Assembly: GCA_021852225.1 (NCBI GenBank) | Contig: JAJZOA010000322.1 | Coordinates: 1 to 17,859, forward strand | Origin: Planctomycetota bacterium | GTDB lineage: Bacteria > Planctomycetota > Phycisphaerae > WQYP01 | Direction of reading: 5' to 3' | Length of the DNA stretch: 17,859 nt | In this document: positions 3,030-16,441 of the stretch, one piece after another | Layout: each line of letters opens with the position of its first letter | Position numbering within the stretch: the first letter of the stretch is position 1 | Position numbers and translations under genes: made by a program | The notes under the pieces: model-generated | Databases searched by the model: none | Seen by the model: the letters and a program-made list of their open reading frames with translations, nothing else | What the model was told of the DNA's origin: nothing

Positions 3030-3926
3030 CTAGCGGGAAATCCATGCGCGCAAGGCGATCCAGGATTTACTCATGGAATTCAGCCTTACGCGGCCATTCA
3101 GCACACGCAGCGGATCATGTGAAATTTTGCTCAAAATACCGGAATAAATTGCTGTCATGGCCCACAACGAACTGCGACTGTCGGCGGAAATGCACGATTC
3201 CAGACCGTCGCTGCTGGCAAAAAAATCCTTGGCCCGCTGGATTTCAAAACGCAGCAAGGCCTCCATGCCCGCACGACTGGGCTCGGAAAGAAGTTCGCCC
3301 GGATCAATTGAAAATCGGCGCATATCTTCCAGTGGTAAGTAATAACGGCCTCGCGCGGCATCTTCGCGCACATCGCGCAATATGTTGGTCAGTTGAAATG
3401 CGATTCCCCGATCCACTGCCATGGCGCGCGTTTGTTCACCGCCCGTAAACCCCCAGATTTGAATGCTTGCCAGGCCCACCACGCTGGCCACGCGATAGCA
3501 ATATTCGCGTAACTGGGCAAAGGTTTGCGGCTGAGTGAACAGAATATCCCCTACCTGGCCATCAATCATGTCGTCCAGCAGATCAATTTTCAAACCGAAA
3601 GATTCCACACAGTGAATAAACGCGTGCCAGCCCGGCCAAGAATCATTTAAAGGTACGCGCCGCTCCTTCGCACCTTCGTGTGTGTTGCGACGGAACGCTT
3701 CCAATACAGCGATTCGGCTGGCCGGTGACTGGTCCGCCGAATCATCCGCCAGATCATCCGCCAGGCGCATCCATGCATAAAGCGCAAACATTCCCCGGCG
3801 CTTTGCCGGAGGCAGCAGTTTAAGTCCATAATAAAAATTGCGGGCCTGTACGCGCGTCACTTCTTCACAAAAGGCCTGCGATCTTGCCAGATTCGGGTCC
3901 GTTGAAGGGCTTATGACCGATGTCAT
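3030..3926 (-). CDS. hpnD: HpnD-type presqualene diphosphate synthase
   Basis: Protein of 298 aa in the squalene/phytoene synthase fold, without a signal peptide. HpnD condenses two farnesyl diphosphates into presqualene diphosphate. The two aspartate-rich Mg-diphosphate motifs are intact: DDLAD at 57-61 (LYAWMRLADDLADD) and DVRED at 185-189 (QLTNILRDVREDAARGRYYLP). FYYGLKLLPPAKRRGMFALY and YCYRVASVVGL are typical of HpnD. The start overlaps the hpnC stop as ATGA, and GGAGG lies 6 nt upstream inside the hpnC end, so the two are translationally coupled. Phytoene or diapophytoene synthase (CrtB/CrtM) is the main alternative. The HpnC partner and the absence of carotenoid genes in the window favour HpnD. 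Confidence 0.85.
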   Translation of the reverse strand: MTSVISPSTDPNLARSQAFCEEVTRVQARNFYYGLKLLPPAKRRGMFALYAWMRLADDLADDSADQSPASRIAVLEAFRRNTHEGAKERRVPLNDSWPGWHAFIHCVESFGLKIDLLDDMIDGQVGDILFTQPQTFAQLREYCYRVASVVGLASIQIWGFTGGEQTRAMAVDRGIAFQLTNILRDVREDAARGRYYLPLEDMRRFSIDPGELLSEPSRAGMEALLRFEIQRAKDFFASSDGLESCISADSRSSLWAMTAIYSGILSKISHDPLRVLNGRVRLNSMSKSWIALRAWISR

Positions 3927-4873
3927 TTCCGTCCTCCGGGCATCACGGTTTTGATCGCCATTGCCATTACCGCCCGCCCCATTAGTCCGAGCTTTTGTGT
4001 TTGGGAAAGTCTCGGACGGGTCGTAAGTGTGTCGTAATTTAATCGCCGAATCGACTCGAGTATCGCCAAGCCGCCCCGGCTGAACAACGATATCTGTGTC
4101 CGCATGGAAGCACGAATCAGCGGCAGCAGCGGGCGCCCCTGCCTGAACATGTCCGCTGCGCGATCCACTTCAAAATGCAGAAGATTGCGGTAATTCTGAT
4201 CGCAGCGGCCCGCGATTATCTGTTCTTGCGTAACCCCGAAGCGTTCCATGGATTCGGCTGGAATATAAATGCGATTGCGGCGCAGAATATCGGACCGCAC
4301 ATCCTGCCAGAAATTGGCAAGCTGCAGGGCGGAACAGATTTTGTCAGAATAGCTTTGTCTTTCCGGATCGCTGTAACCCCCCAGATACAGCACCAGACGC
4401 CCGACCGGATCCGCGCTGCGGCGGCAGTAATCCAGGACTTGATCAAATGTTTCATATCGCTGGACGCGCTGATCTTGCACAAAGGCGTCAATTAAATCCA
4501 AAAAGGGTTGAATCGGAATTTTGTGCCTGTCAATCGTCCCGCGCAACGCGGTAAATATTGCCGTTCGCGTATCGCCGGCATAACAGGCCACTGTTTGGCT
4601 GCGAAAATCATCCAGATATTTCAGTGCGGTCGTCCGGTCCGCCACTTCGTCGCCCAGGTCGTCCGCGGTGCGGCAAAATGCGTAAATATTACAAAAATCC
4701 TGCCGCAGGGCTTTGGGAACCAGCCACGAGACAACCGTGAAATTTTCGTAATGTTCGTGGGCCAGTTTCCAGGTGTATCGCGCCGCGGCGACCGTATCCG
4801 TCATCGGTGCCATGGCCATTGCAACCGTCGGCGGCGGGCCTGCGGGTGTTTGGGTAAGAATATTGGGGTCCAT
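3923..4873 (-). CDS. hpnC: HpnC-type hydroxysqualene synthase
   Basis: Protein of 316 aa, second member of the squalene synthase family here. HpnC converts presqualene diphosphate to hydroxysqualene, which HpnE then reduces to squalene. Recognised by HYENFTVVSWLVP near residue 41, the first motif DDLGD at 71-75 within IYAFCRTADDLGDE, RRSADPVGRLVLYLGG at 151-166, and the second motif DVRSD at 191-195 within LQLANFWQDVRSD. These are typical HpnC landmarks. The start at 4873 has only a weak GAG upstream. In-frame ATG codons at residues 20, 22 and 24 are possible later starts but also lack ribosome binding sites, and the first 25 residues are low-complexity Pro/Ala. The gene heads the hpnC-hpnD unit and is divergent from ispH. 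Confidence 0.87.
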   Translation of the reverse strand: MDPNILTQTPAGPPPTVAMAMAPMTDTVAAARYTWKLAHEHYENFTVVSWLVPKALRQDFCNIYAFCRTADDLGDEVADRTTALKYLDDFRSQTVACYAGDTRTAIFTALRGTIDRHKIPIQPFLDLIDAFVQDQRVQRYETFDQVLDYCRRSADPVGRLVLYLGGYSDPERQSYSDKICSALQLANFWQDVRSDILRRNRIYIPAESMERFGVTQEQIIAGRCDQNYRNLLHFEVDRAADMFRQGRPLLPLIRASMRTQISLFSRGGLAILESIRRLNYDTLTTRPRLSQTQKLGLMGRAVMAMAIKTVMPGGRK

Positions 4874-5129
4874 TCAGTTGCTCGGTACGCGATTCCTGTC
4901 TGCCATGAAAACCAGACCAAATACCCGGTCTAAGGGCTTGGTCAGCCGCCACCAGATCGGGTAAGATAATGGAGGCAGGGCTTCTTATTGTCCCGAATTC
5001 CGGCTGGCTTGCAAATAGGGCTGGCGGAATGAACGGGGTATAATCAGCCACTGCGGATGATCTCGCCGGTGGATCGGCCGTTTAACGCGACTGTCGGCGG
5101 GTCAGGACACCTTTTTCGGAGAAAACAAA
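4874..5129. promoter_or_regulatory. Divergent hpnC / ispH control region
   Basis: The 256 nt between two divergent isoprenoid genes must hold promoters for both. On the plus strand a perfect TATAAT at 5039-5044 is the likely ispH -10 box. No good -35 lies 16-18 nt before it; TTGCAA is 24 nt away. This would give a leader of about 79 nt. On the hpnC side no convincing promoter pair stands out. A short AGACC...GGTCT inverted repeat near 4915-4933 is a possible operator of low certainty. Confidence 0.45.
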
Positions 5130-6080
5130 ATGAAGATTCTACTGGCCAATCCGCGTGGCTTCTGTGCAGGCGTCAATATGGCCATCGAATGTGTGGATCG
5201 TGTACTGGAGCTAAAGGGGGCACCGGTTTATGTGTACCATGAAATTGTTCATAACCGGCATGTAGTGGAAAGGTTCACCCGCCAGGGTGTCGTGTTTGTG
5301 GATTCCGTCGATGAGGTTCCCAACGGCGGCACTGTGGTCTATTCCGCGCATGGTGTGTCGCCCGAAGTACGCGCCAGGTCCAATGCCCGTGGGCTGGTTC
5401 AAGTGGATGCAACTTGGCCGCTCGTAACAAAAGTCCATAACGAAGCCATTCGCTATGCTCGTCAAAAATTCACGATAGTTCTCATCGGACACGCCGACCA
5501 CGATGAGGTCGTGGGTACTCTGGGCGAAGCCCCTGCCGCCATCAGCATAGTGGAATGCGTTGCCGACGTTGAAAAATTAAGCATCCCCGATGACCACCGG
5601 GTGGCCTATCTCACACAGACTACTCTTAGTCTGGATGATGCCGCCAAAATAATTGCCGCCCTGAAGGCGAAATTCCCGCGGATTCAGGCTCCCCCTAAAG
5701 AAGACATCTGCTACGCCACCACCAACCGGCAGACCGCGGTGCAGAAACTTGCACCCGAATGCGATTTGGTTCTGGTTGTAGGCAGCCAGAACAGTTCCAA
5801 TTCAAAACGACTGGTGGAAATGTCCGTGAATCGCGGCACCCGGGCTTATCTGGTGGATGATGTCTCGCATCTCGATTACTCCTGGTTTGAAAATGTCGGT
5901 ACGGTACTGCTGACCGCTGGCGCGTCGGCTCCGGAAGACCTCGTCCAGGAAATCGTCAATCTCCTTAAGGCGCGTTACGGTGCCACGGTTGAATCCCGCC
6001 ATGTTACTGATGAAGACATGCACTTCGAATTGCCCGTATCGCTACGCCGTCTGGAAAAACAGCATGCTCAAACGGTGTAG
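5130..6080 (+). CDS. ispH: 4-hydroxy-3-methylbut-2-enyl diphosphate reductase with one cluster cysteine replaced by Trp
   Basis: Protein of 316 aa, full length. IspH performs the last MEP-pathway step, reducing HMBPP to IPP and DMAPP with a [4Fe-4S] cluster. In E. coli the cluster is held by Cys12, Cys96 and Cys197. Here Cys12 (PRGFCAGV) and Cys194 (EDICYATTNRQ) are present, but position 96 is Trp: VDATWPLVTKVH instead of the usual DATCPLVTKVH. Other active-site residues remain: His41, His74 (YSAHGV), His124 and Glu126 (HADHDEVVGT), the LTQTT threonines, Ser222/Ser223/Asn224 (GSQNSSNS) and Ser266 (AGASAPE). The start at 5130 has GGAG upstream at good spacing and begins in the family's canonical MKILLANPRGFCAG. 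The family is certain. Whether this copy works as drawn is not. Confidence 0.96.
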   Translation: MKILLANPRGFCAGVNMAIECVDRVLELKGAPVYVYHEIVHNRHVVERFTRQGVVFVDSVDEVPNGGTVVYSAHGVSPEVRARSNARGLVQVDATWPLVTKVHNEAIRYARQKFTIVLIGHADHDEVVGTLGEAPAAISIVECVADVEKLSIPDDHRVAYLTQTTLSLDDAAKIIAALKAKFPRIQAPPKEDICYATTNRQTAVQKLAPECDLVLVVGSQNSSNSKRLVEMSVNRGTRAYLVDDVSHLDYSWFENVGTVLLTAGASAPEDLVQEIVNLLKARYGATVESRHVTDEDMHFELPVSLRRLEKQHAQTV

Positions 6081-6348: not shown

Positions 6349-8685
6349 ATGAATTTCCTTCGCCGATTTAAAGCACTTGCCTACATTCTGGTGCTTCTTA
6401 GCTTGGTTGGATTTACTTACGCTTCTGCGAATTACGGCTTGATGGCCATGGCCGTCGCCGCGGTGGGCATAAGCTGGTGGCTTGTGGAAAAGGGAGCCGC
6501 TCCGCCCGTCCCCCGATGGATCATCAATCTATCCGTCTTAACGATCGCGGTGATGTTGTTTTGGGAACTGGTTATTTATCGCCAGCCCAATCTGCTTTTG
6601 GGGCTGGGCCATTTTATTTTCGGCCTGGTCATCTGCAAACTTTTTGAAACCAAGACCAACCGGGACTATGGCCAGATCATGATTCTAAGTCTCCTGCTGG
6701 TGCTGTCCGGCGCGATTCTCAGTACATCGCCGGTTTTCGCCATGGTGTTGCTGCTTTATCTTGCCGCGGGACTTTACGTAAGTCTGATTTTTCATTTGCA
6801 GTGCGAAACTCAGCGGGCCATGGCCCGGCACGCGGGCGCAGACCTGATGATGACCGCGGCCGGACAGCAGAACGTGATTGCTCGAGATCTGCGCCGGTTA
6901 AGTGTGGGTATCGGCCTGTTTCTGTTTCTATTTGCCTGCCTTGTGTTTGTTCTGTTTCCGCGTTCCAGCGTCAATCAACTCTTTGCCAACTGGCAACTCA
7001 ATGGCGGTCCGGTGAAAACTGGATTTTCGCGGCACGTTACGATGGGCCAACTCGGAACGCTGCAACAGAGCAATGCCCGCGTAGCCGAAGTTGCGATTAC
7101 AAAAAATGGCAAAAATATCGGAAGTGAAGGGTATCAGCCATATTTTATTGGAGGAACCTTGAATGTATATGATGGGGCCACTCATGAATGGATTCGGTCG
7201 TACAATTCTATGCGTTCTAATCAGCGCGTTCACCTGATGGGCGGCGTGCCCGTGAACCTGGTTTCACCATCGCTTTACAATACGCAAGACGTAATTACCG
7301 AGAATTTCACCTTTGATCATCCCCAGGCCAATACGCTTTTCGCCATCGGACCAGCGGTGAAATTGTCCGGCAGGGGCCTCGGGCGGGTGCTTCGGTTGAG
7401 CGACGGCTCTATGATCTGCTCGCCAGTTCATTCCGGAGCAATCATCTATTCCGTAGCCACAGCGTTGAAATACAACCCGAAAATTATTGGTCCGCAGCGG
7501 CCCTCGCTTTTTCCCTCCGCCATGCGGTATCAGCCGTTTGATCTAAACTCCATGTCGCGCATTCATTCTGCGCCAATTCCGCAGCGGATCATCACATTGG
7601 CCAGAAAGGTGGCCGGGCCACTGTTAAAACTTAAACGCACGCCCGCAACCGAAGCCCGCGTGGATACGCTTCTGGCGGATCGTTTCTGTACCTGGCTTCG
7701 CGCCAATTACCCCTATTCCTTTGATATGACCCCCGTCGATTCAAACATGGACCCTACCGAAGACTTTCTCTTCAATAAACGGAAAATTGGCGGCTATTGT
7801 GAATTTTTCGCCTCTGCCATGGTCATGTTCTGTCGCAGTATGCACATTCCGGCCCGCATGGCGACCGGCTATCATGGCGGCGACTATAACCCGATTGCCG
7901 GTTATTACATTATCCGCCAGAAATTCGCCCACGCCTGGGTCCAGGTATTTATCCCGGGAAAAGGATGGTTAAATTATGATCCGTCGCCCGCGTCTTCCCT
8001 GACCAGCATTCAGCAGAAGCTGACCTGGTTCACTGAAATCGCTGATTTTTTTCAATGGGTCCGCCTCCAGTGGCTCCAAAGCATTATCGCATTCAATGAA
8101 TCCATGCGCCGCAATATTATTTTAAAAATTGAAATGCTCGGCAAAGCTGTCGGTCATACCGTTATGCAGTCGATCCATCACATTGAATTAATGATGCGAG
8201 TTCTTTTTACAGATCGGCATATTGGCGCAAGCGAACGGATTCTGTTTCTTATCGGCACACTGGGCGCGGTCGCCCTGGGATTGTTTTTTCTGCACCTGTG
8301 GCGAAAACAGCGACGAAGCCTGGTGGTGCAGATGGTCAAGGGAATGGAGCGCAGAATGCAGCGCCAATTAACGCGGGATCTGGCGTTTTTCGACCGGCTT
8401 GTGGAAATTCTTGAACGAATTGGCATCCAGCGCACCGATACCCAGACTCCCAGAGAATTCGTCTGCGCCGCAGCTGTCGCCGCTGGCAGCGAACTGCCCG
8501 AGGCTGACGAACTGGTTCGGATTTTTTACGATATTCGTTATGGCGGTCAGGATGTTTCTATTTCTGTAAGCACCCGTATTCGCGAGGCAATCGCGACACT
8601 CGACCGGCGCGTCCGGGGAATCAAGCCAATCATCCCCGTCTCGTCCGATCCACCAGTCGTTCCACCAAACCCTCACAGGACATAA
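6349..8685 (+). CDS. TgpA-like membrane transglutaminase (DUF3488 + transglutaminase core + DUF4129)
   Basis: Protein of 778 aa. Six or seven membrane segments fill residues 9 to about 203 (DUF3488-like). A long extracytoplasmic part follows with a transglutaminase/cysteine-protease core. Its triad is Cys484 in GGYCEFFASAMV, His528 in FAHAWVQVF and Asp544 in NYDPSPA. A further membrane segment lies at about 629-651, then a basic cytoplasmic tail with a DUF4129-like end (TPREFVCAA...DELVRIFYDIRYGG). The family includes P. aeruginosa TgpA, an essential periplasmic enzyme, but substrates are generally unknown. The start is supported by AGGCGG 7 nt upstream. The frequent family neighbours, a MoxR ATPase and a DUF58 protein, are not adjacent. 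It converges on the HAD gene with a 19-nt gap. Confidence 0.9.
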   Translation: MNFLRRFKALAYILVLLSLVGFTYASANYGLMAMAVAAVGISWWLVEKGAAPPVPRWIINLSVLTIAVMLFWELVIYRQPNLLLGLGHFIFGLVICKLFETKTNRDYGQIMILSLLLVLSGAILSTSPVFAMVLLLYLAAGLYVSLIFHLQCETQRAMARHAGADLMMTAAGQQNVIARDLRRLSVGIGLFLFLFACLVFVLFPRSSVNQLFANWQLNGGPVKTGFSRHVTMGQLGTLQQSNARVAEVAITKNGKNIGSEGYQPYFIGGTLNVYDGATHEWIRSYNSMRSNQRVHLMGGVPVNLVSPSLYNTQDVITENFTFDHPQANTLFAIGPAVKLSGRGLGRVLRLSDGSMICSPVHSGAIIYSVATALKYNPKIIGPQRPSLFPSAMRYQPFDLNSMSRIHSAPIPQRIITLARKVAGPLLKLKRTPATEARVDTLLADRFCTWLRANYPYSFDMTPVDSNMDPTEDFLFNKRKIGGYCEFFASAMVMFCRSMHIPARMATGYHGGDYNPIAGYYIIRQKFAHAWVQVFIPGKGWLNYDPSPASSLTSIQQKLTWFTEIADFFQWVRLQWLQSIIAFNESMRRNIILKIEMLGKAVGHTVMQSIHHIELMMRVLFTDRHIGASERILFLIGTLGAVALGLFFLHLWRKQRRSLVVQMVKGMERRMQRQLTRDLAFFDRLVEILERIGIQRTDTQTPREFVCAAAVAAGSELPEADELVRIFYDIRYGGQDVSISVSTRIREAIATLDRRVRGIKPIIPVSSDPPVVPPNPHRT

Positions 8686-10180: not shown

Positions 10181-10372
10181 TGCCATTCCCAATGACGGAG
10201 GTTGGATTTACTCAATTTTAACAATTGCTCATCAGAATGACCGCCAGGCCGCATAGAAATGGGCGGCCCGAATACGTTCGGATACATTGTTGAAGGCCCG
10301 CTGGCATTATTTTCGCGCCAGGGCCGTCCCGGACCTGATTAAAAAAATATCCCCTTGAACCAAGGAGTTCCG
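10181..10372. promoter_or_regulatory. Leader region of the phosphoesterase gene with small hairpins
   Basis: No gene is present. Three small inverted repeats occur: CAATT-TTAAC-AATTG near 10214-10228, CCGAA-TACG-TTCGG at 10268-10281, and CTGGC...GCCAG near 10299-10319. None is followed by a T run, so I do not call a terminator. No convincing -35/-10 pair was found. Confidence 0.3.
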
Positions 10373-13108
10373 ATGAAAGTTCGATTCTTTGCCTGCCAAA
10401 CCTCCACCGCCACCGCTTTTGCTGGAATTATTCTAATGGCGGCATTCGGCTTGCCTTTACTTTCTGTCCACGCGTCCATCCCCGGCGGGCGCAGTGGTTC
10501 CAAGGTTCTGCTGCCCAGTGGGCGGGCACTTGCCCCGGCCGGCCGTTTGGTTGCCACCCCCAACTTCGCAGTGAATGTCGTGGTGTCCGCGGGAAAGGTC
10601 GTGGTTGCGGCCTCCGGTGCGTCGCAGACGCATTCCGTGAGTCTGTTTGACGCTGCATCCCTTAAGCCGGTCGCACAGCTTTTATTGTTTCGGCAAAAGC
10701 CCTGGTGGAGTAAAGTGATTCATGGGATTAACCATCAAAGCCTGTTTCAAGGCATGTTCGCAGGTCCGGGGGGGAATATTTACGTCGCTGGCGGCTGCAG
10801 TGATGATATTCTCGTTCTCCATGCAGTCGCTGAAAAGTTTCGGCTTATCCGGCGATTTGCCCTTCATGGCCAACCATTCCCCGCCACGCAATATCCCTAT
10901 GAATACCAGGGGCCGCATGGTGGAACCCGGCTCTTCTATCCTGATTCCGTCGCAGTTGGTGCCACTGGCCACCACATTTTCGCCACAGGTTTACTGAGCA
11001 ACGCCGTGGCGCGAATCAACCTGACCAGCGGCCGGGTGCAATATGCCAATTGCGGTCCATTTCCTTTTCAGGTTGCCGTTGCCAACCATGGCCACCTGCT
11101 GGTTGTGAGCAACTGGGGAGGCAACAGTCTCTCGGTACTGAACGCACAAAATCTCAAACCGCTTGGCCGCATTTCCCTCGGACCGCGCACCGGGCCGCAA
11201 AATCAGTTGCCGGGCGTTCATCCCACCGCCATAGTACCCGTCGGAAACTCCTCGCAACTGTGGGTTGCCTGCGCCAACACCGATGTGCTGGTGAAAGTCG
11301 ACGCCGTAAAGCTTAAAGCCATCGGACTGGCGGTGGACCTTCCGTACGCCGGCGCACCGCCCGGAACTTTTCCCGACGCCCTGGCAATTCAAGGCAAATA
11401 TCTCTTTGCCGCCAACAGTGGAAACAATGATGTTGCCGTATTTGACGCAGCCTCTGGAAAATCGCTTGGCCTTATTCCCACCGCTTGGTACCCCACCAGT
11501 CTGGCCGTAAAGGGTGGCAATCTTTTTGTTGCCTGTGCCAAAGGTCTGGGCAGCGGTCCGGGGACATACCAGCACTGGATAGGCGACTCGATGAGCGGCT
11601 CACTGGAGAAAATTCCGCTGCGGAATCTGTCAATCGACCTGGCGGCCTGGACACATACCGCGCTGGCTGATAACGGGTTTACTAGCCATCAGCGGGCGGC
11701 GCGCCGCCGGCACAATTCCCGCGTGGCACTATTTATTCACAAGCATATCCGTCATGTCGTCTTTATTCTGCGGGAAAATAAAACTTTTGATGAAGACTTC
11801 GGTGCCTATCGCCCCGCCGGCAAATGGGCTGACCCGAAATTAGACCTGTACAACGGTCATGAACTGCCCAATCTTTACAACTTGGCCCGCCGATCCGCGC
11901 TCTGTGTTAATTTTTATGTCGATGGCGAAGTCACCGCACAGGGGCATCAGTGGACGACCAGTGCCGAGGATTCTGATTTTGTGCAGCGCACCTGGCCAAT
12001 GTATTATTCCGGTCGCGGAATGGTGCCCGGTCCTGGCTGGACCCAGAGCCTCGGAGGCAATGCGGGTAAAAGCGGCAACGGCTTTGGCGACGGGGATAAC
12101 CCGTTCAGCGCATCAGAAAATCTTTCAGTACTGGGCCACTGGGCAAATCCATGGATTACTTATCCACAGGGAATGTTTCTTTTCAATAACCTGTTAACCC
12201 ATCATAAAAGTTTTATGGACTTCGGCGAATTTGCCGCGCGTAATCAGGCCGGTGATATTTCCGCCGCCATGCGCCGGCACATGTCCGCGAAATCCGCCGC
12301 TTGGGACCTGTTTATTCTGGACACCAATCGCGCCGCGGTTGTAACGCGCTATATCGCCGCGCATCAGAGCCATCTTCCAGATTGCATGTATATTTGGCTT
12401 CCGGATGATCACACCGCTGGCGGCACGCCGGGTTATTACACTCCGGATTATTACGTCGCCAACAACGACCGGGCAACCGGCCAGATTATCGCGGCTTTAA
12501 GTCGTCTGCCCGCCTGGCGGCATACCCTCGTCATCATCACCGAAGACGACGCGCAGTCCGGTGCCGACCATATCGACGCCCACCGTAGTCTCGCTTTGTT
12601 GGTTAGCCCTTGGATAAAGCCGGCTTGTCTGGTTACACACCGTTACTCGCAGATCGATCTGACCCGCATCATTGAGTGCGTCTGCCACATGCCCGCAATG
12701 TCTCAATGGGATGCGAATGGACGGTTGATTTCCGGCATCTGGACACACAGACCTCATCTGGCACCGATTCTGGCTCTGGCCATTGGCGTGCCCAAACAGT
12801 TGAATCCCGGCCATGTACCGGCCATGCGGCGCCTTCGTTTCAAGGCCGGCAGCGATGGCCAGTGGCTTTCACCAGAATGGCTCAAAGCACATGGAATTGG
12901 CTCGCGACTTGGCCATTCACTTCCGGCTTTTACGCCTACGGCGCTTGGGAAAATCCCCGGTCCTGAACAAATGCGGCAGGAATGGATTATTTCCAGGGGG
13001 CGCGTCAGTTATCAGAATGTGATGGCCTATATTCATCAGCTTGCAGCGCGTGAACATCGCCCATTATCAGCATTTGTCGCCACCACTGATGCCGACGACG
13101 GCGATTGA
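10373..13108 (+). CDS. Secreted YncE-like beta-propeller fused to an alkaline-phosphatase-type phosphoesterase
   Basis: Protein of 911 aa. Residues 1 to about 34 form a signal peptide ending in SVHAS. Residues of about 60-430 are repeated beta-propeller blades of the YVTN/YncE kind (for example YLFAANSGNNDVAVFDAASG and LVVSNWGGNSLSVL). From about 460 a phosphoesterase domain (PF04185-like, alkaline phosphatase superfamily) begins with VVFILRENKTFDEDFG, Glu468/Asn469 being likely metal ligands. It continues with GHQW (His525), WLPDDHTAG (Asp678, Asp679, His680) and ITEDDAQSGADHIDAHRS (Asp725/Asp726, His733, His737). This matches the known bifunctional YncE/alkaline phosphatase family architecture, likely releasing phosphate from esters outside the cytoplasm. 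The start at 10373 has AAGGAG 5 nt upstream; a TTG six codons earlier lies before this site. The MFS gene follows after 74 nt. Confidence 0.9.
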   Translation: MKVRFFACQTSTATAFAGIILMAAFGLPLLSVHASIPGGRSGSKVLLPSGRALAPAGRLVATPNFAVNVVVSAGKVVVAASGASQTHSVSLFDAASLKPVAQLLLFRQKPWWSKVIHGINHQSLFQGMFAGPGGNIYVAGGCSDDILVLHAVAEKFRLIRRFALHGQPFPATQYPYEYQGPHGGTRLFYPDSVAVGATGHHIFATGLLSNAVARINLTSGRVQYANCGPFPFQVAVANHGHLLVVSNWGGNSLSVLNAQNLKPLGRISLGPRTGPQNQLPGVHPTAIVPVGNSSQLWVACANTDVLVKVDAVKLKAIGLAVDLPYAGAPPGTFPDALAIQGKYLFAANSGNNDVAVFDAASGKSLGLIPTAWYPTSLAVKGGNLFVACAKGLGSGPGTYQHWIGDSMSGSLEKIPLRNLSIDLAAWTHTALADNGFTSHQRAARRRHNSRVALFIHKHIRHVVFILRENKTFDEDFGAYRPAGKWADPKLDLYNGHELPNLYNLARRSALCVNFYVDGEVTAQGHQWTTSAEDSDFVQRTWPMYYSGRGMVPGPGWTQSLGGNAGKSGNGFGDGDNPFSASENLSVLGHWANPWITYPQGMFLFNNLLTHHKSFMDFGEFAARNQAGDISAAMRRHMSAKSAAWDLFILDTNRAAVVTRYIAAHQSHLPDCMYIWLPDDHTAGGTPGYYTPDYYVANNDRATGQIIAALSRLPAWRHTLVIITEDDAQSGADHIDAHRSLALLVSPWIKPACLVTHRYSQIDLTRIIECVCHMPAMSQWDANGRLISGIWTHRPHLAPILALAIGVPKQLNPGHVPAMRRLRFKAGSDGQWLSPEWLKAHGIGSRLGHSLPAFTPTALGKIPGPEQMRQEWIISRGRVSYQNVMAYIHQLAAREHRPLSAFVATTDADDGD

Positions 13109-14968: not shown

Positions 14969-16441
14969 ATGAGTACGCCCCATCAACACCAATCACACGG
15001 TACGACCGGCCACGCCGGGGACAAGCGCTCGGATGCTCGTGCTGCGGCCAAGGCGGCCCGTCAACAGATGGCTAAAAAGCTCGCCAGCCTGACCACCGGC
15101 TCAGAACTTCTGAAGCTTGTCGAGAAACGCGCCTTTTTAACCGATCCCGAATTTCAAACTTGCCAGCGCTGCACCAATCCCAAACTTGCGGATGGTCTGC
15201 CCTATCACCTTTTCCTGCCCGCCGAAATGGCCCTCTCGCCGGAAGATGTGTTTCCTAACCTGCGCTGGGGCGGGCGAGCGGTTATGGTAAGCGAAAATTC
15301 CATGCTCATTAGTGAACTTGCTCAAAAGTTTGTCCGCTGGGACGGCTTTGTCATTGAAAAGCAGCCCACCGCCATGCGACAACCGGTTCTGGGAATGCAC
15401 CTGCCCTGGTTCGGCAAACCGCTGCATTATTTTATCGCGCGTAAGGTGGACCTGCTGAAGCCCGGTGAATCCACAGACCGGTTTACCTACCAGGTTCGTC
15501 TGACCAAACGCGCTGCCACAGATTCCGAATATGTCGTCGTCAAACAGGTACCGACCGTGGACCGCGTCATATCGCGTTTGCGCGCCAAATTTCCCGATGC
15601 TCCGCTGGATGATATTCGCCGTCGGGCCATGAAATTCACGGAAAAGATATTTCCCGTCTTTCTGACCCGCGAGGCCGCCATGCTCCAGATTCTGGAACGC
15701 GACTTGCCCGCACCGTATAACGAACGCGTGCCGCGATGTCTGGGGGTGGAACATGATTCCAAGGGGTTTGTACGGGTTATGTACATGAATTGGCTACGCA
15801 ATGGGGGCGATGGTATTTCCCAACTGGATTTCGCTATTCAGGCCACCGAGTTGCTTTCCGCCCTGCACGATAAAGTTGGTGTTATTCACCTGGACTTGCG
15901 ACTTGATAATTTCGTTATCACTGAAAAAGGCGTCGGATTCATCGACTTTGGATCGGCGGTCCGCGTGGGTGAAAAATTTGCCGACAATTCCCTGCTTTCA
16001 ACCCTTTTTGAGGAAATGATGCGCACGAGTCAGATTCAGCGCATGTTGTACCATATGACTGAAACCGGCCTGGTCACTTCCGACGTTCTTCGCAGCGGAG
16101 TGCATCGCATGGACAAAGCCGTGGATATGTTTTATCTGGCTGTGCAGATGAACAAACCCCATTCCAACCCGGATTTCAAAGGCCTTGTTCACATGAATGC
16201 CAAAAGTCTGGAAGCCCAGCACATCAAGCGCCTTTCCGATGAAATTCTCCGCCCGGTGGATGCCAACGCCGTTCCTTACCGAAACGCTCAAGAAATTCTG
16301 CAGGGCCTGCATAAGGTGCGCGAAGATGTCTTGAATGGACGCGAGGTGGATGCTTCCAACAAAACAGCGGTCAGTTTTCACGACGACCCCGCCGAAAGCA
16401 ATCCTGCGCCTGCCGCCACCAAGCGGACCGCAATTGCCTGA
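14969..16441 (+). CDS. Divergent protein-kinase-like protein with an unrecognised N-terminal domain
   Basis: Protein of 490 aa without signal peptide or membrane segment, so probably cytoplasmic. The kinase-like part spans about 175-400 and keeps the catalytic elements: Lys192 in VVVKQV, a candidate helix-C Glu235 in TREAAML, the catalytic loop HLDLRLDNFV (His307, Asp309, Asn314) and DFG at 326-328. No clear Gly-rich loop is visible before Lys192. Ahead lies a basic Ala/Lys-rich start and a roughly 130-residue region I do not recognise, with Cys65-x2-Cys68 and WGGRAVMVSEN. The C-terminal tail is Ala/Pro-rich. The start is supported by AAGGTGA 7 nt upstream. A phosphotransferase of the APH/RIO-like fold, rather than a true Ser/Thr kinase, is the main alternative. 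No substrate or partner is evident nearby. Confidence 0.8.
   Translation: MSTPHQHQSHGTTGHAGDKRSDARAAAKAARQQMAKKLASLTTGSELLKLVEKRAFLTDPEFQTCQRCTNPKLADGLPYHLFLPAEMALSPEDVFPNLRWGGRAVMVSENSMLISELAQKFVRWDGFVIEKQPTAMRQPVLGMHLPWFGKPLHYFIARKVDLLKPGESTDRFTYQVRLTKRAATDSEYVVVKQVPTVDRVISRLRAKFPDAPLDDIRRRAMKFTEKIFPVFLTREAAMLQILERDLPAPYNERVPRCLGVEHDSKGFVRVMYMNWLRNGGDGISQLDFAIQATELLSALHDKVGVIHLDLRLDNFVITEKGVGFIDFGSAVRVGEKFADNSLLSTLFEEMMRTSQIQRMLYHMTETGLVTSDVLRSGVHRMDKAVDMFYLAVQMNKPHSNPDFKGLVHMNAKSLEAQHIKRLSDEILRPVDANAVPYRNAQEILQGLHKVREDVLNGREVDASNKTAVSFHDDPAESNPAPAATKRTAIA

Follow-up and report, generated by a model that had tools for sequence, protein, structure and literature searches.

Does the ispH gene of this planctomycete encode an enzyme that has lost a ligand of its iron-sulfur cluster, or does its sequence record contain a wrong base? 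The window, by which we mean the whole 17,859-nucleotide stretch of DNA analysed, contains an ispH gene whose codon 96 reads as tryptophan at the position of a [4Fe-4S] cysteine (Table 1). IspH, an essential enzyme of isoprenoid synthesis, reductively dehydroxylates HMBPP to give IPP and DMAPP. According to one article, its cluster is bound through three cysteines (PMC8837944); on that basis, a genuine Trp96 should abolish activity. A review states that mutating any one of Cys12, Cys96 and Cys197 leads to complete loss of activity (PMC9745026).

The ispH gene and its codon 96

The ispH reading frame is full length (316 amino acids), begins with an ATG that follows a GGAG stretch and contains no internal stop. 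In profile searches, its product passed the cut-offs of TIGR00216 (317.5 bits; cut-off 187.85) and NF002190 (420 bits; cut-off 389), scored 306.7 bits against PF02401 and remained under the cut-offs of two narrower models, NF002189 (425.6; 444) and NF002188 (416.1; 420). A phmmer comparison with the IspH chains 3urk and 3ke8 of the PDB, which we take to be E. coli IspH, aligned residues 1 to 103 of the query without a gap and placed Trp96 opposite the cysteine of DATCPLVTKVH. The first-pass annotation had read codon 96 as tryptophan and had used E. coli numbering up to that point, and this alignment bears it out. Further along, the PDB chain is longer by three residues, a pair following query residue 134 and a single one following 135, and the third cysteine is therefore numbered Cys194 in the window protein.

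We also observed that the other active-site residues checked are intact, as the first-pass annotation had held. Cys12 is present, as are His41, His74, His124 and Glu126, the residues of substrate binding or proton transfer, and the SSNS and ASAP stretches are shared with known IspH/LytB proteins. If the record is right, the difference from these proteins is a single base, which puts tryptophan in place of the ligand Cys96 and leaves Cys12 and Cys194 as the two remaining cluster cysteines.

Table 1. Coordinates of the features discussed, in the window unless a relative's locus is named
Feature	Position	Strand	Evidence or remark
hpnC, squalene synthase HpnC, divergent neighbour	3923..4873	-	TIGR03464, 334.9 bits (cut-off 250.45)
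ispH, IspH/LytB (HMBPP reductase)	5130..6080	+	Open reading frame; TIGR00216; PF02401; 93% protein identity with nearest relative
Codon 12, Cys, conserved cluster ligand	5163..5165	+	Cys in 181/189 homologues, gap in the other 8
Codon 96, TGG (Trp); TGC/TGT (Cys, [4Fe-4S] ligand) in relatives examined	5415..5417	+
Codon 194, Cys (= E. coli Cys197), conserved cluster ligand	5709..5711	+	Cys in 189/189 homologues; PDB-chain alignment
TgpA-like transglutaminase-domain membrane protein, downstream neighbour	6349..8685	+	PF11992, PF01841, PF13559; collinear with L001
Second IspH of relative, locus L107	1501-2427	+
Second IspH of relative, locus L108	1501-2427	+
Second IspH of relative, locus L109	1501-2349 (matched part)	+
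Second IspH of relative, locus L110	1498-2331 (matched part)	-

Column 96 in relatives

Two protein searches listed 189 distinct homologues (120 listed of 8000 scored, and 85 from the second search, with 16 common to both), and all 189 have cysteine at column 96. The second search used words from residues 78-118, Trp words included, and none of its 85 matches had tryptophan at this column. The listed proteins stand for 90% clusters, with 13 members in that of P0001, and these members could conceal an uncommon Trp form. At the DNA level, 325 loci were confirmed in the genome collection; the best 80 were kept, and each has a cysteine codon. Together with four repeat copies of genes among these 80 (L081-L084), the 84 loci comprised 51 with TGC and 33 with TGT, either of which is one third-position base away from TGG.

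The nearest relative (locus L001 on contig JAKBBN010000091.1, genome G001), which is among these best 80 loci, reads TGC at codon 96, and the protein P0001, likewise of the canonical planctomycete (Phycisphaerae-type) kind, has cysteine. The window protein resembles this kind in its 93% identity, and its gene neighbourhood is the same as that of L001; it differs at codon 96, at which the other relatives examined have TGC or TGT. Of the 28 genomes searched in the family of the nearest relative, 26 yielded a canonical IspH, and all 26 proteins have Cys96; at least 8 of the genomes also supplied loci to the genome-collection set. A narrow DNA pattern for the Trp form of ispH had no match in 392 genomes drawn from the phylum. 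The Cys form of this pattern matched all canonical loci (80/80 and 26/26) and none of four loci of a second, divergent IspH described below, so the zero covers canonical-type genes only. Among the partial texts returned by a literature search, we met no natural Cys96 variant of IspH, which is no proof that none is in print.

Judged from the sequences compared, tryptophan at column 96 is outside ordinary IspH variation. If the tryptophan is real, the window protein stands alone among the IspH proteins compared in lacking Cys96, and it would challenge the model of how the cluster is held. The first-pass annotation had named TGC or TGT in sister genomes as the mark of a sequence error, and every relative examined has one or the other. 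Because the nearest relative belongs to another species, these codons suggest a base error and do not prove it.

Constraint on the rest of the gene

Over positions 3111-6065 (hpnD-hpnC-ispH), the nearest relative shares about 72% nucleotide identity with the window and, on this comparison, is clearly a different species. Of 312 ispH codons compared, 157 differ synonymously between the two and 21 nonsynonymously, which corresponds to a dN of 0.052 and a saturated dS of 2.55 (dN/dS about 0.02) and points to purifying selection on ispH until recently. The 23 close loci L001-L023 agree at 190 IspH columns, and the window protein matches them at 189, deviating only at Cys96. Four genes could be scored in this way, the other seven being covered by too few loci; deviations at invariant columns numbered 0 of 77 in HpnD, 2 of 112 in HpnC and 2 of 169 in TgpA. 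By these measures, the remainder of ispH is under strong constraint. The first-pass annotation had seen no premature stop or other decay, and the open frame and the kept columns agree with it.

Other readings of the codon were considered and set aside. A pseudogene is argued against by the open frame, by a dN far below dS and by the kept invariant columns. A compensating cysteine was rejected; the window protein has cysteines at positions 12, 21, 143, 194 and 211, L001 has the same set plus 96, and none was gained relative to it. An altered genetic code does not help, since TGG stands for tryptophan in the codes known to us.

These data bear on the possibility of a genuine Trp96 in a protein that remains active, its cluster resting on two cysteines and some other ligand. 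The gene is otherwise as strongly conserved as that of a functional enzyme, which is the one observation in favour of such a protein. Against it, the Trp form was absent from the 189 proteins and from the 392 phylum genomes screened with the narrow pattern, and no cysteine was gained; the review reports Cys96 as essential in E. coli IspH (PMC9745026). We therefore consider a working Trp96 IspH very unlikely and found no support for a new mode of holding the cluster. To our knowledge, iron-sulfur clusters are not normally ligated by tryptophan, which also speaks against such a protein.

The first-pass annotation had offered three outcomes, namely an inactive protein, a cluster held differently or a wrong base. 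Inactivation by a real Trp96 agrees with the review (PMC9745026). A differently held cluster fares badly, with no gained cysteine and no other change among the columns invariant in the 23 loci, and the wrong base is the outcome that we favour by inference.

A second possibility is that the ispH product has changed its function and become a cluster-free protein, moonlighting or regulatory. Nothing besides the missing ligand suggests this. Such a change should alter other active-site columns, whereas the 189 others are kept at a dN/dS of about 0.02, and the hpnC-ispH-tgpA arrangement is in the same position as in L001; a change of function has a slender chance at most. More generally, had Trp96 persisted for long, the gene should bear traces of it. 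We saw none, which suggests either a wrong base or a very recent change.

A second IspH in the family

In the relatives' lineage, isoprenoid synthesis appears to rely on the MEP route, because IspG/GcpE was present in all eight relatives tested (G001-G008) and neither HMG-CoA reductase nor HMG-CoA synthase was matched in any of the eight. The HMG-CoA synthase profile is not specific, as it also matched control genomes that include E. coli and B. subtilis, and this does not weaken its zero.

Of the 28 family genomes, 12 contain a second IspH-like gene with 30-34% identity. Both kinds occur in 11 genomes; in G415 only the second kind was found and in G417 neither. We read four of the 12 second copies (L107-L110), all of which keep Cys12, Cys96, Cys194, His41, His74, His124 and Glu126, and the two that were tested against TIGR00216 (L108 and L109) exceeded its cut-off. 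This gene, known from the genomes of relatives, thus shares with the window protein its assignment to IspH by profile in the two copies tested; it differs in its sequence, in having all three cysteines and, in L107 and L108, in its neighbours. Its presence in 12 of 28 genomes suggests that members of this family may survive the loss of the canonical IspH.

The distribution of the second copy was compared with a tree of canonical IspH proteins, whose 27 rows are those of the window and of 26 relatives, G415 and G417 being absent from it. The window and G001 have three sibling clades, with moderate support at the fork. No second IspH was found in G001, a metagenome-assembled genome (MAG) of unstated completeness, and two of the sibling clades (G002-G004 with G409, and G006, G007, G410 and G411) have a single IspH only, in genomes whose completeness is likewise not stated. 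In the third clade, four of six genomes have a second IspH, and the row second closest to the window, behind G001, is that of G413, a two-copy genome. The single-copy genomes G008 and G412 sit in this third clade among nearly identical two-copy neighbours; this placement and the unstated completeness make the absence of a second copy unsure.

The second IspH gives weight to another explanation, that TGG is real and a very recent loss of function. It would then be a strain variant or a first step of decay, with a second IspH supplying IPP and DMAPP, or else deleterious and transient. The intact cluster and catalytic residues of the four second copies read, the profile scores of L108 and L109 and the position of G413 and the third clade are in its favour. 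The single IspH found in G001 and in two sibling clades argues against it, as does Cys96 in the canonical copy of all 11 two-copy genomes, where redundancy has brought no visible relaxation. Because of the second IspH in the family and the unsure absences, we keep a recent loss as the main rival, although we consider it rather unlikely. For TGG to be real and fixed, either in a two-cysteine IspH or in a canonical protein left cluster-free after its reaction passed to a second IspH, there is little chance indeed.

Origin of the TGG codon

We consider it probable that the record has one wrong base in the TGG of codon 96. The G at position 5417 would then have arisen in sequencing or assembly, and the organism itself most likely has a normal IspH gene with a cysteine codon at 96; that base 5417 itself is wrong is our inference. 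The deviation is confined to the ligand column, with every other invariant column kept and cysteine in all relatives examined. An inactive IspH would also fit poorly with a lineage that appears to rely on the MEP route. In addition, several contigs of related MAGs are labelled as low in coverage ('cov_1.61' for L001 and 'cov_1.52' for L005), labels that belong to the relatives and not to the window. At low coverage, one faulty read may be enough to leave its mark. An error presumably also has a high prior, because a scan for missing catalytic residues selects such errors; with many genes scanned, one-base deviations at catalytic codons are expected now and then from errors alone.

Against an error, the other deviations at invariant columns number four, two in HpnC and two in TgpA, of which three are conservative and the fourth, a serine for arginine in HpnC, falls at a column that is variable in the wider set. 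We saw no other clear sign of poor sequence in the scored genes. Moreover, a real and recent null allele would look identical in sequence, and the second IspH in part of the family could make one tolerable.

Neighbouring genes

The first-pass annotation had placed hpnC divergent from ispH, and its identity as HpnC is confirmed by a TIGR03464 score above the cut-off. HpnC has serine at codons 168 (4370-4372) and 274 (4052-4054), where 19 close loci have arginine and alanine, respectively; both columns are variable in a wider set of 29 loci. In the TgpA-like protein, codons 94 (6628-6630) and 554 (8008-8010) each carry a conservative exchange between Val and Ile, at columns that do not vary among 22 and 21 close loci, respectively. 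Elsewhere in the window, a 490-amino-acid protein at 14969-16441 gave weak kinase-like matches to APH (5.3e-5; 23.5 bits, cut-off 23.2) and to Bud32 (4.5e-4, far under the cut-off), and a 917-amino-acid protein at 10355-13108 matched a beta-propeller repeat (TIGR02276) and a phosphoesterase family (PF04185).
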